From positions 1-20,855 of the IMG/VR virus record IMGVR_UViG_3300022602_000497: DNA of 20,855 nucleotides; one strand, 5' to 3'. The DNA comes from a virus. Position numbers and translations under genes: made by a program. This document shows, piece by piece, positions 11,997 to 20,855 of the stretch. Below the pieces are notes generated by a model that saw only the letters and a list, made by a program, of their open reading frames with translations, had not been told where the DNA came from and did no database searches. Position 1 is the first letter of the stretch. Every line of letters starts with the position of its first letter.

Positions 11997-12572
11997 ATGT
12001 TTGAACATTTAACCCACATATTACAAAGGATGAAAATTATGTCAGATGATACAACAGTAGTAGCAAATACAGACCCAACAACAGTTGCAACAGCCGCAGT
12101 AGTTACAGCTGCACCAACTGCAACACCAGAAGAAACTCAAGCAGCTGTTCAATCAGTTGTGGCAACTTCTCCAGCAGCTGCTGATCCAGCGGCCGCAGCC
12201 GTAGTTACAACAGTAGTTACCGCACAAGCAGCTGCACCAGCAGTTACAGATCCAGCGGCAGCTGCAGTAGTTACAGCCGCAGTTGCAGCCGTAGCATCAG
12301 CACCAGCTGAAGTTGTTACAGATCCAGTTGCAATCACAGCCGCAGTTACTGAAGCAATTCAAGCAGTTCCAGCAGTTACAGACCCAGCAGCTGCAATCGA
12401 GGCATCTCATGCAGTAGCGGCAGTTGTAGCATCTGCAACATCTGCACCAGTTGATTCAGATACATTGAGCGACTTGACAGACGCTATTACAACTGATCCA
12501 GAAGAAGATGATAATACAGACGAAATCATTAGTTTGTTAGAACAAGCTCTTGATTTACTACGTAATCAGTAA
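11997..12572 (+). CDS. Ala/Val/Thr-rich repeat protein, probable virion component
   Basis: I do not recognise this family. The 191-residue protein is over a third Ala, with Val, Thr and Pro making up much of the rest. Residues ~60-150 consist of repeats of about 20-24 residues centred on (A)VTDPAAA followed by VVTAAV-like segments. There is no Cys, Trp or Tyr. The C-terminus changes to an acidic linker (DPEEDDNTDE) and an amphipathic helix, IISLLEQALDLLRNQ, that looks like an oligomerisation or docking element. Two starts are plausible: 11997 (AAAGGAG 6 bases upstream) and 12039 (AAAGGA upstream, giving MSDDTTV). The gene has its own late promoter core and UUCG terminator between the capsid and a tube-like gene. 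A head fibre or other capsid-surface protein is an inference from location and expression class. Confidence 0.75.
   Translation: MFEHLTHILQRMKIMSDDTTVVANTDPTTVATAAVVTAAPTATPEETQAAVQSVVATSPAAADPAAAAVVTTVVTAQAAAPAVTDPAAAAVVTAAVAAVASAPAEVVTDPVAITAAVTEAIQAVPAVTDPAAAIEASHAVAAVVASATSAPVDSDTLSDLTDAITTDPEEDDNTDEIISLLEQALDLLRNQ
12183..12440 (+). repeat. Tandem ~22-codon repeats in the Ala-rich gene
   Basis: The anchor gatccag (or gacccag) recurs at 12183, 12249, 12321 and 12381, that is every 66, 72 and 60 bases, the last three copies preceded by gttaca. Between anchors are gcagctgca and gtagttaca modules. The repeat matches at both DNA and protein level, suggesting recent duplication. Confidence 0.7.
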
Positions 12573-16550: not shown

Positions 16551-17621
16551 ATGAAAATAGCAATTATTACTGATCAACACTTTGGGGCAAGAAACGACTC
16601 CATACAATTTCTGGATTATTATGAGAAATTTTATAAGGATACTTTCTTTCCTACTATTGATAATGAGTCTATATCTACTGTTCTCATACTTGGGGATACG
16701 TTTGACAGGCGTAAGTACGTCAATTTCTTTACCTTAAAACGTGCCAAACAAATGTTCTTTGATCCTTTATTGGACAGAGATATCAAAGTACACATGTTGG
16801 CAGGTAACCATGACACATACTTCAAGAATACCAACGAGGTAAATTCTGTTGACTTGTTACTACAAGAGTATGATAACATCAATGTGATTGACCACCCAAC
16901 CGAGATTGAGATTGAAGGTGTAAAGATTGTAATGATGCCATGGATATGTGAATGGAATTATAATGAATCTATGGAGTTACTCAAAAATACTGATGCAACT
17001 ATTTGCATGGGACATTTTGAGATAGCTGGTTTTGCAATGCATCGTGGTATGCAATCACAAGAAGGATTAGATCGTGGTCTCTTTCGCCGTTTCCAATGCA
17101 CTTTTAGCGGTCATTATCACCATCGTTCTTCTTCGGATGGAATCAATTATCTTGGTAACCCCTACGAACTTACTTGGCAAGATTATAATGATACTCGTGG
17201 ATTTCATCTATTCGATATACATAATTTGGACCTTCAGTTTGTTGCTAACCCTAATATAATGTTCCATCGTATTACGTATGATGACAAGTTAGAATCAATC
17301 TCCGATATTACCAACAAAGATATGAGCATATATGCCAATCGGTATGTCAAGGTTGTGGTAGTAAACAAAACTAATCCATATCTATTTGACCGATTTATGG
17401 ATGCTTTATATCAAGTCAATCCTGCTGACGTTACTATCGTTGAGGACTTTACAGACTTGACAGAAGGCGCAGAAGATGATATGATAGACCAAGCAGAAGA
17501 CACATTGACTATACTAAACAAGTTTGTTGATACCGTTCAACATGATAGTATTGATAATAATGTATTGAAGAATGTATTGAAAGAGCTTTACATAGAAGCA
17601 TTGAATCAAGATAACGTATGA
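16551..17621 (+). CDS. 47: Recombination endonuclease subunit gp47 (Mre11/SbcD family)
   Basis: gp47 is the nuclease of the gp46-gp47 complex that resects DNA ends for recombination-dependent replication. The 356-residue product (T4 gp47 is 339) has all phosphoesterase motifs: TDQH (D8, H10), LGDTFDRR (D49), GNHD (85-88), GHFE (154-157) and SGHYHHRS (H188, H190), the metal ligands and catalytic His of Mre11/SbcD proteins. The C-terminal ~120 residues form the capping and partner-binding part. It overlaps gene 46 by 4 bases (ATGA), as expected for a fixed-ratio complex. A consensus sigma-70 promoter sits directly upstream, suggesting early or middle expression by unmodified host polymerase. 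Confidence 0.96.
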   Translation: MKIAIITDQHFGARNDSIQFLDYYEKFYKDTFFPTIDNESISTVLILGDTFDRRKYVNFFTLKRAKQMFFDPLLDRDIKVHMLAGNHDTYFKNTNEVNSVDLLLQEYDNINVIDHPTEIEIEGVKIVMMPWICEWNYNESMELLKNTDATICMGHFEIAGFAMHRGMQSQEGLDRGLFRRFQCTFSGHYHHRSSSDGINYLGNPYELTWQDYNDTRGFHLFDIHNLDLQFVANPNIMFHRITYDDKLESISDITNKDMSIYANRYVKVVVVNKTNPYLFDRFMDALYQVNPADVTIVEDFTDLTEGAEDDMIDQAEDTLTILNKFVDTVQHDSIDNNVLKNVLKELYIEALNQDNV

Positions 17622-19333
17622 TTTTATTTGAAACTGTTCGTTGGAAGAATATTCTTTCAACTGGTAACTCGTTCACCGAAGTAAAGTTGAACAAGTCACC
17701 TAACACATTGATTATTGGACATAATGGTGCTGGTAAATCCACCATATTGGATGCGTTGTGCTTTGGTCTTTTCGGTAAACCATTCCGTAAAATCAATAAA
17801 CCAAATTTACTAAACTCTATCAACAATCAAAAAGGTATTGTTGAGATTGAGTTTACTATTGGTAAAAAGAAATACAAGATTGTTCGTGGTATCAAACCTA
17901 ATGTGTTTGAAATCTATTGCGATAATGTTTTGCTGAACCAAGATGCAGCTGCAAGAGACTATCAGGAAGTACTAGAGAAACAAATTCTCAAATTGAATTA
18001 TAAGTCCTTCACGCAGGTTGTCATCCTTGGTTCAGCCTCTTTTGTTCCATTCATGCAATTGACTCCTGTTATTCGCAGAGAGATCATTGAAGATTTATTG
18101 GATATTCAAATCTTCTCTACAATGAATGGACTTCTCAAGGAAAAGTTCTCAGAGAACAAAGAGAGCATTACCAAAACCAAGTATGAGATTAGTTTGATAC
18201 AGGAGAAGATCAGTCTTCAATTGTCCAACATCGAAGAACACAAAAAGAATAATGCTGTTCAAGTGGAACGTAAGCAAGAAGAAATTGCGGAATCACAGGC
18301 ACAGATTGATAAAATTAGTAGTGATGTGGAACTCATACAGAAACATATCGATGCATTACAAACCAAGGTTCTAGATAAGAGTAAGTTAGAGGCTAAATCT
18401 AAAGAGTACCTACAGATAGAATCCAAATTGGAATCTAAACTAAAGAGATTGAAAAAAGATGAAACTTTCTACCACGAGAATGACAATTGCCCAACGTGCA
18501 AACAATCGATACCGGCAGGATTCAAAGCCACTCAATTATCAAGTATTACAGCAACTAAAAATGAGGTCGACAATGCAGTTACGCAAATTGAAACTCGTAT
18601 CGAGTCTCTTTCCGAATCCCTCGGTAAAATGCAAAAGATATTGGAGAATATCAGCAAACATCAAAATGAAATCTTGAAACACAATACCAATATTACGGCA
18701 ACAAACAAGTATATTGGTAAGTTGAATAAAGAAATTGCTGAGTTACAATCCAAGTCCGATACTTCAGAACAAGACAACGAGAAACTGAACGAGTTCAAAG
18801 CCGAATTAGATAGATGTAAAAAAGAATATGACATGTTATTTGTTGAGAAACAATACATGGATTTTGCAAGTACATTATTGAAAGATACTGGTATCAAAAC
18901 CAAGATTATCAAACAGTACTTGCCAGTCATGAATAAACTAATCAACAAATATCTCAAGGCGATGGACTTCTTTGTGAACTTCAATATTGATGAGAACTTT
19001 GAGGAAACAATAAAGTCTCGTCACCGTGATGAGTTCAGTTATGCAAACTTCTCCGAAGGTGAGAAGATGCGTATTGATCTGGCATTATTATTTACCTGGC
19101 GACAAATTGCCAAGTTGAAGAATAGTGTTAGTACAAACCTATTGATACTTGATGAGGTCTTTGATTCAAGTCTCGATACAGTAGGCACAGAAGAATTCTT
19201 GAAGTTGATCCATGAAATGGGTAATGATACAAATGTATTTGTTATCTCACATAAAGGTGACCAACTTTTCGATAAGTTCCGTTCAGTTATAAAATTCCAA
19301 AAGGTAAACAATTTTTCACAGGTGGTAAAATGA
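17618..19333 (+). CDS. 46: Recombination endonuclease subunit gp46 (Rad50/SbcC family)
   Basis: gp46 is the SMC-like ATPase that controls gp47. In this 571-residue protein (T4 gp46 is 560) the N-terminal ATPase half shows Walker A GHNGAGKS (34-41) and Q-loop region TQVVILGS (132-139). A coiled-coil arm (~175-400) is interrupted by the zinc hook CPTCKQSI (C291, C294), used for dimerisation. The C-terminal half shows the ABC signature NFSEGEKMR (477-485), Walker B NLLILDEVFD (507-516) and the switch His SHKGD (H545). Start and stop overlap neighbours by ATGA on both sides, so 47, 46 and the deformylase gene are translationally coupled. Confidence 0.97.
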   Translation: MILFETVRWKNILSTGNSFTEVKLNKSPNTLIIGHNGAGKSTILDALCFGLFGKPFRKINKPNLLNSINNQKGIVEIEFTIGKKKYKIVRGIKPNVFEIYCDNVLLNQDAAARDYQEVLEKQILKLNYKSFTQVVILGSASFVPFMQLTPVIRREIIEDLLDIQIFSTMNGLLKEKFSENKESITKTKYEISLIQEKISLQLSNIEEHKKNNAVQVERKQEEIAESQAQIDKISSDVELIQKHIDALQTKVLDKSKLEAKSKEYLQIESKLESKLKRLKKDETFYHENDNCPTCKQSIPAGFKATQLSSITATKNEVDNAVTQIETRIESLSESLGKMQKILENISKHQNEILKHNTNITATNKYIGKLNKEIAELQSKSDTSEQDNEKLNEFKAELDRCKKEYDMLFVEKQYMDFASTLLKDTGIKTKIIKQYLPVMNKLINKYLKAMDFFVNFNIDENFEETIKSRHRDEFSYANFSEGEKMRIDLALLFTWRQIAKLKNSVSTNLLILDEVFDSSLDTVGTEEFLKLIHEMGNDTNVFVISHKGDQLFDKFRSVIKFQKVNNFSQVVK

Positions 19334-20025
19334 ATAAAATAACTTCAGTACAAGAAGCATTTAGTAATGATAAGGATATGATTGTTTTCGATACAGATAA
19401 ACAATCACAATTGATCCAAAAAGAAATCGAAACGTTTGATTTGGTTCCCGAAACCGATCCAATCTTATTAGAAGTATTACCGGAGTTTGACTTTGACAAT
19501 GCACCAATCAATGTGGTTGACTTTGCATCTTCAATGGTAGAAACCTGTATCAAACATAAAGGTTATGGTTTATCCGCCAATCAATGTGGATTCTCCTATC
19601 GTATGTTTGTGATGGGTGCCGGTACAGAATATGTGGCATTCTTCAATCCTAAGGTTATCAAAACCGAAGATGAAGTCCATATGGAAGAAGGTTGTTTATC
19701 GTTTCCTGGTTTGTCCTTGCATATCACCCGACCAAAAGAAATCTGGGTGGAATACCAGGATTACAACGGAGTAAAGAAAGAAGCACATTATGTTGGTATG
19801 AGTGCAAGATGTTTTCTCCACGAGCTTGACCACATGAACGGAATAGTGTATACTAAGAAGGCGAAACCACTTGCATTACAAAGTGGAATGAAGAAACGTG
19901 CAAAGGTTTTCAACATGATGCAACGTTACTTCAAAGCACAAGAAAAGTTGGCACACCAAACTAAGAAACAAGAATCGATTGTAAAACATAAACACAATGG
20001 CAAAAAAACAAATACTGTCAATTGA
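19330..20025 (+). CDS. def: Peptide deformylase with N- and C-terminal extensions
   Basis: Peptide deformylase removes the formyl group from the N-terminal Met of nascent proteins, using a metal ion. All three motifs are present: GYGLSANQCG (78-87), EGCLS (120-124, metal ligand C122) and HELDH (164-168, ligands H164 and H168, catalytic E165). Phage deformylases are usually short, ending soon after motif 3; here the 231-residue protein has a ~35-residue acidic N-terminal extension and a ~50-residue basic, Lys-rich C-terminal tail (KAQEKLAHQTKKQ and onwards). It overlaps gene 46 by ATGA and the next gene by 29 bases. Phage deformylases are known from cyanophages and other aquatic phages; the extensions are unusual, with unknown function. 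The catalytic core appears intact. Confidence 0.93.
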   Translation: MNKITSVQEAFSNDKDMIVFDTDKQSQLIQKEIETFDLVPETDPILLEVLPEFDFDNAPINVVDFASSMVETCIKHKGYGLSANQCGFSYRMFVMGAGTEYVAFFNPKVIKTEDEVHMEEGCLSFPGLSLHITRPKEIWVEYQDYNGVKKEAHYVGMSARCFLHELDHMNGIVYTKKAKPLALQSGMKKRAKVFNMMQRYFKAQEKLAHQTKKQESIVKHKHNGKKTNTVN

Positions 20026-20855
20026 TGAACAATGGGCTGACTGGCAGGAACAAAACGATCCTGCCAGATTTGAACATATTGATACTGAACAACTACAACA
20101 GGAACTCATAGAGAACCTAACTCACAAATCCCAAATGGATGTGCGTGAGTATACTTTATATCAGAAATGGATTGAAGTAAAAGAAAAGTTCCCTACAAAA
20201 CAAGTTTCTAATTTGTTCGGTGATGATGAATTTCGATTGATAAATCCAGGTCAACTAAAGACTATCAATGAAGCTAGAGAGAAAATCTGGTTACCAGAAT
20301 CTCCTGATGATTATGAGAAGTTGAAACCGACAATGGTTCTATCTAACGGTCCATTGGCCGATAAATGGAATACTGTTCGTACTTTTTCTTCTACAATGAA
20401 GAATAATTCTAACATTGGACGTAATCTATTCTACACCGTAGTCGATGAAGTAACAGGTAAGTATCTTGGTGTAATTTGTATATCATCTGACTTCCTGGAC
20501 CTTACTCCAAGAGATACTTATATTGGTTGGCCTAAAGATGTGAAGACACAAGGTAATATGATCAATCATACGGCAATTGGATCGACAATCGTTCCACTTC
20601 AACCGTTAGGGTTCAATTACATGGGTGGTAAATTATTGGCATTGTTATGCCTTTCAGATACAGTTCAAAAAGATTGGAAGAAACAATATGGTGACGTTCT
20701 TGCTGGGGTTACAACTACTTCTCTATATGGTATGGCAAAGTCCAATGGGTTATCACAATACGATGGACTCGAACATTGGTCTAAAATGGGATTCAGTTCT
20801 GGCTCAGTTGCTTATCTCCCTGACCGTGATATACTCAACAAGATGTACGCTTGGG
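19997..20855 (+). CDS. DUF4338/DruA-like protein (3' end outside window)
   Basis: The frame is open from the ATG at 19997, inside the end of the deformylase gene, to the last base (286 codons), so the gene is truncated by the window. Starts at 20025 and 20032 are in other frames. After an ~85-residue helical N-terminus the protein has segments resembling DUF4338 in order: the YTVVDEVTGKYLGVICISS segment, RDTYIGW (position of the family 'IGW' motif), QGNMINHTAIGSTIVPL, the GGKLLALLCLSDTVQKDWKK segment followed by QYGDVLAGVTT, then LYGMAKSNG and LEHWSKMGFSSG (position of 'YRAANW..LG.T.G'). DUF4338 is the DruA family of the Druantia defence system, also found in phages. The match is from memory, so the family call is moderate; the gene itself is secure. 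Confidence 0.6.
   Translation, partial: MAKKQILSIDEQWADWQEQNDPARFEHIDTEQLQQELIENLTHKSQMDVREYTLYQKWIEVKEKFPTKQVSNLFGDDEFRLINPGQLKTINEAREKIWLPESPDDYEKLKPTMVLSNGPLADKWNTVRTFSSTMKNNSNIGRNLFYTVVDEVTGKYLGVICISSDFLDLTPRDTYIGWPKDVKTQGNMINHTAIGSTIVPLQPLGFNYMGGKLLALLCLSDTVQKDWKKQYGDVLAGVTTTSLYGMAKSNGLSQYDGLEHWSKMGFSSGSVAYLPDRDILNKMYAW

Follow-up and report, generated by a model that had tools for sequence, protein, structure and literature searches.

Why would a phage carry a gene from a family named after an anti-phage system among its own replication genes? The window, by which we mean the whole 20,855-nucleotide stretch of viral DNA analyzed here, raises this question because its last open frame, recognized as DUF4338 by motif order in the original prediction, directly follows genes for gp47, gp46, and peptide deformylase. 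That prediction took the gene for an integral phage function, co-translated with replication genes and not a recent cargo gene, and offered three uses for it: against rival phages, as a decoy of host Druantia, or in DNA processing. The features concerned are listed below.

16551..17621, plus strand: gp47 (SbcD/Mre11-like nuclease); Metallophos PF00149, E 7e-11.
17618..19333, plus strand: gp46 (SbcC/Rad50-like recombination ATPase); SMC_N / AAA_23.
19330..20025, plus strand: peptide deformylase; PF01327, E 1.5e-35.
19997..20854, plus strand: DruA-family gene (DruA1 clade); PF14236, PADLOC DruA, and PHROG 19197; the 3' end lies outside the window.
20308..20854, plus strand: start of the predicted GNAT-fold domain, from the AlphaFold model of relative L007, its match to Mom 8bv8, and invariant columns.

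Elsewhere in the window, positions 1-912 encode a putative tail-fibre-like protein in which N-Q-A-N-A-A-F units recur, and positions 11997-12572 encode a 191-aa low-complexity protein, rich in Ala, Val, Thr, and Pro, which has no Pfam match.

The frame at 19997-20854 begins with ATG and stays free of stops for 286 codons, up to the end of the window. In profile searches it matched both Pfam PF14236 (DruA, formerly DUF4338) at E 7.4e-16 and 58.6 bits, where the curated cut-off is 27 bits, and the PADLOC DruA model at E 1.2e-10; it also matched PHROG 19197, a group of unknown function, at E 5e-28. The motifs IGW, MINH, GGKLLALL, DWKKQYG, and W-S-K-M-G-F-S-S-G were all found in it, and in a 33-sequence alignment GGKLLA, TTSLYG, and SQYD were invariant or nearly so. 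Intact relatives are mostly 421-432 residues long, and therefore the window gene lacks about 135-145 codons at its 3' end, those for the C-terminal part. Full-length relatives reach the end of the PF14236 profile (E 2e-21 to 2e-22; L007 and L002 align to profile position 296/297), with pelagiphage and window-like full-length relatives scoring 65-80 bits, and therefore the match is not due to chance. Searches of NCBIfam and, by sequence, of solved structures returned no match to phage DruA. Membership in the DUF4338/DruA family was thus borne out.

We addressed whether the gene belongs to its surroundings by sampling loci chosen by the neighboring gp46 and not by DruA, counting as informative those with at least 1.7 kb of sequence after gp46. 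A DruA gene lay downstream of gp46 in 62/62 informative loci of this sample, drawn so as to avoid bias, and one pattern scan of viral contigs gave at least 597 confirmed relatives. The deformylase adjoins DruA1 in 74/74 loci, and synteny with gp47 held in 51/51. Among 66 loci with all four genes, the median identity to the window was 70% for DruA, 71% for gp47, 65% for gp46, and 59% for the deformylase; between DruA1 relatives the median dN/dS was 0.08, with dS near 1. Its presence in every informative gp46-chosen locus, a conservation equal to that of gp47, and the low dN/dS mark DruA1 as a core gene on which purifying selection is strong. These data show that DruA1 is a core part of a replication-recombination cassette shared by a large, uncultured group of aquatic T4-like phages, and they uphold the prediction of an integral phage function. 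Co-translation fits as well: the start of DruA1 overlaps the deformylase frame by 29 bases in the window and by 26 bases in L007, and similar overlaps in some relatives are consistent with both the assigned start and co-translation.

In window-like loci the order is gp47, gp46, deformylase, DruA1, a winged HTH gene, a glycosyltransferase-like gene, in some a dNMP kinase (present in 37/63), then gp45 and gp44, and this order holds in all informative loci. Pelagiphage-like loci share gp46-deformylase-DruA1 (74/77) but not the downstream genes. No Druantia partner gene, neither the DruE helicase nor any other, was found in the conserved DruA1 operon, and the window gene is not part of a Druantia system. 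In L018:7677-9157 and relatives, the conserved gene two places after DruA1 encodes 272 residues (PHROG 1574, unknown) with a weak likeness to Anp1 glycosyltransferases; together with the adjoining dNMP kinase it recalls the T4-type DNA glucosylation gene set.

Besides DruA1, most large contigs of the window-phage kind carry a second PF14236 gene, whose product has about 369 residues. Window-like phages have this gene after those for gp43, UvsX, and gp41; Pelagibacter phage HTVC008M has it between gp43 and UvsX, and on a related contig it is close to these two. In a tree, these second copies group with cyanophage proteins, whose genes lie between gp44 and gp62, and DruA1 forms its own clade; bacterial DruA is set apart by long branches, its exact placement being unsure. 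This shows DruA2 to be a separate paralog amid primase-helicase, UvsX, and DNA polymerase genes, and in every phage arrangement seen, PF14236 genes stood amid DNA-replication genes. The closest named comparisons are the DUF4338 proteins of HTVC008M and Mosig EXVC030M (the latter already annotated as such), which are about 56% identical to the window protein and likewise follow gp46 and deformylase, although their downstream genes are MazG or a peptidase instead of the HTH and glycosyltransferase-like genes of window-like loci. DruA-like proteins have been reported by structure comparison in six Synechococcus phages (Phold paper, PMC12774648). These proteins, of S-PRM1 and others, share the Pfam family and the conserved core with the window protein, but they belong to the DruA2 clade, whereas the DruA1 window protein is about 27-30% identical to them, has a longer N-terminal part, and occupies a different operon position. 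In the record of one cyanophage, that phage's copy is labeled methylcarbamoylase mom.

What the protein might do was approached through its predicted fold. The AlphaFold model of L007, which is 76% identical to the window protein, had a mean pLDDT of 84.5, and the fold is read from this one model, a low-confidence cyanophage model (pLDDT 59) having been kept out of the fold searches. In VIA-align, the best solved match was phage Mu Mom, a DNA adenine methylcarbamoylase (8bv8; Z 10.8, 174 aligned residues, rmsd 4.2), with a lead of only 1.0 Z over many GNATs at 9.8 and below; the PDB matches listed for the model were Mom and GNAT-fold enzymes at Z 8.9-10.8. Foldseek against the PDB gave no match at E <= 0.001, acetyltransferases being frequent in its list. 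In a viral structure library, Mom of phage FSL SP-031 matched the model at E 8e-4 and probability 1.00, and was the only named-function match at E <= 0.001 known to involve a GNAT fold, the others being mostly unnamed giant-virus or phage proteins. Phage DruA1 is accordingly modeled as a GNAT-fold protein, the predicted domain covering residues 104-356 in L007 and about 104-286 in the window protein; DUF4338 was independently called a GNAT domain in a published analysis (PMC10853773). The invariant glycine-rich GGKL falls at the place of GNAT motif A, and the full Q/R-x-x-G-x-G/A loop is not kept in all branches. The BFVD entries A0A3G4ZXG3, A0A5K0UAJ3, and A0A3G4ZRA1, from Faunusvirus, Yasminevirus, and Dasosvirus, also match the DruA1 model (E 1e-17 to 2e-8).

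A published review (PMC7824862) describes Mom as a GNAT enzyme acting by acylation of N6 in adenine. Although Mom is the nearest fold, it shows no direct sequence match to phage-type DruA (hhalign probability 0.1, score 13.4; shuffles scored up to 29.9), and the sequence alignment shows nothing equivalent to its invariant His-Tyr, Ser124, and Asp149 in phage-type proteins, so any chemistry that these carry out is not just a copy of Mom's. PF14236 proteins of bacterial genomes come in two types: one, which we call FVD, has the motifs HHY, N-L-A-S, T-F-V-D, and G-T-x-Y-x-A-A-N-W; the other has GGKL and TTSLYG, and both the phage protein and the DruA of defense loci belong to this TSLYG type. Compared by hhalign, the FVD type scored 62.5 against Mom (best of 60 column shuffles, 20.8) and 76.7 against the phage type (25.8 shuffled), and its motifs coincide with the invariant His-Tyr, Asn, Ser, Asp, Gly, Tyr, Ala, and Asn of Mom. 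As judged from these profile alignments, the FVD branch is a sequence relative of Mom, to which the phage branch is linked only indirectly, through the FVD branch. In L356 (2123 bases, with a 679-aa open frame), an FVD-type domain appeared by eye to be in-frame with an IS4/Tn5-type transposase, and other FVD-type genes, for example in L354, L355, and L367, appeared by eye to adjoin transposase-like frames. One phage contig, G303, bears a short FVD-type gene as its third PF14236 copy, with a product of 193 residues. The 193-aa FVD-type product of L382:3919-4500 reads TFVG instead of TFVD and belongs to a phage that also encodes DruA1 and DruA2.

Bacterial relatives of the phage's own type add context. 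DruA from bacterial defense loci (PADLOC DruA1 models) shares GGKL and TTSLYG-like motifs with the phage protein and is alignable through the C-terminal region, but the two are divided by long separate branches and the phage gene lacks adjoining Druantia partners. TSLYG-type bacterial DruA occurs with NurA- and HerA-like genes, as at L379:4411-8572, where it lies next to both, and at L378:3622-12412, where DruA, NurA-like, and HerA-like genes stand directly behind TnsA, a Mu-type transposase, TniB, and TniQ; this module is cargo of a Tn7-like transposon. At L376:214-10146, a protein of 1281 aa joins DruA (PADLOC E 2e-110) to an SspF/DndF-like part that comes after it, in line with published DndF fusions (PMC10853773); adjoining this gene are one of 1583 aa and one with a weak likeness to SspG. 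Taken with the phage operons, these contexts point to DNA as the working place.

Of the three uses first proposed, DNA processing survives, narrowed by a predicted GNAT fold nearest to that of phage Mu Mom. We favor, at somewhat less than even confidence, a GNAT-fold protein working on phage DNA in replication or recombination, probably as a base-modifying acyltransferase. DruA1 would act on the phage's own DNA while it is replicated or recombined; the likeliest chemistry would be a Mom-like one, in which a base receives an acyl-type group; such a mark would tag or shield phage DNA against nucleases; and DruA1 and DruA2 would each serve a complex or a target of its own. Neither thymidylate-synthase-like (PF00303) nor PurZ-like (PF00709) enzymes were found in related phages, some of whose records may be fragments, so nothing points to base replacement at the precursor level by either of those routes; no precursor enzyme would be required for a Mom-type mark, which is added to finished DNA.

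The missing Mom catalytic residues suit a protein without catalysis, in which the GNAT fold is a scaffold and DruA1 serves gp46/gp47 (SbcCD-like) as a DNA-binding or DNA-end adaptor, as DruA2 would the replisome. The fixed place beside gp46/gp47 fits such an adaptor, as do the neighbors of same-branch bacterial DruA, genes like those of NurA and HerA, which form a pair for DNA-end resection; yet the dense invariant polar residues (TTSLYG, SQYD, and GGK), kept across very distant branches, resemble an active or cofactor site, and we consider this a real but lesser prospect, perhaps a quarter of the way to certainty in our judgment. Another reading is an acetyltransferase of proteins or small molecules that aids host takeover, acting for instance on host factors or on new N-termini after the deformylase. 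In its favor, DruA1 overlaps the deformylase gene in this clade, and close behind Mom in the fold list come generic GNATs, whose substrates are in many cases proteins or small molecules. However, cyanophage and DruA2 copies stand among replication genes with no adjoining deformylase, and the bacterial kin are located with DNA machinery, which makes this reading rather unlikely. Homology to the DruA subunit is what would commend a decoy or inhibitor of host Druantia, a counter-defense role that we regard as very improbable for a gene present in all 62 gp46-chosen loci at a dN/dS of 0.08, split deeply from bacterial DruA in the tree, and duplicated within replication operons. An exclusion weapon against rival phages, for which the family name and the defense context of bacterial DruA speak, is the least credible, given a core instead of a patchy cargo distribution and a conserved operon holding no Druantia or other defense partner. 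The original prediction therefore stands in its family assignment and integral function and is not supported in its two defense-related uses, which sit poorly with an old gene found in two phage clades among replication genes.

Returning to the base-modifying acyltransferase, a broader and distinctly more speculative proposal is that PF14236 is a distant Mom-type superfamily of DNA-modifying enzymes, that the two core paralogs of aquatic T4-like phages place a new acyl mark on their own DNA, and that bacterial Druantia would use a relative of this enzyme. In the literature searched, we found neither the paralog pair, the core status, and the two-branch link to Mom stated, nor a description of the biochemical role of DruA, nor a paper mentioning either DruA or Druantia in connection with GNAT or Mom, the search being thin on subscription papers.

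We conclude that a family named after an anti-phage system is a fixed, duplicated part of the replication clusters of many aquatic T4-like phages, and that a DruA profile match should not be taken, when the genome is that of a phage, as evidence of a defense system. The predicted shape of DruA suggests action on DNA rather than a borrowed weapon. DruA is an ordinary gene in the cultured phages HTVC008M, Mosig, S-SSM7, and S-PRM1, and its role is directly testable there. If DruA does prove to be a DNA-modifying enzyme, this would help to explain Druantia and, in addition, the DNA chemistry of T4-like phages that abound in the sea and in fresh water.
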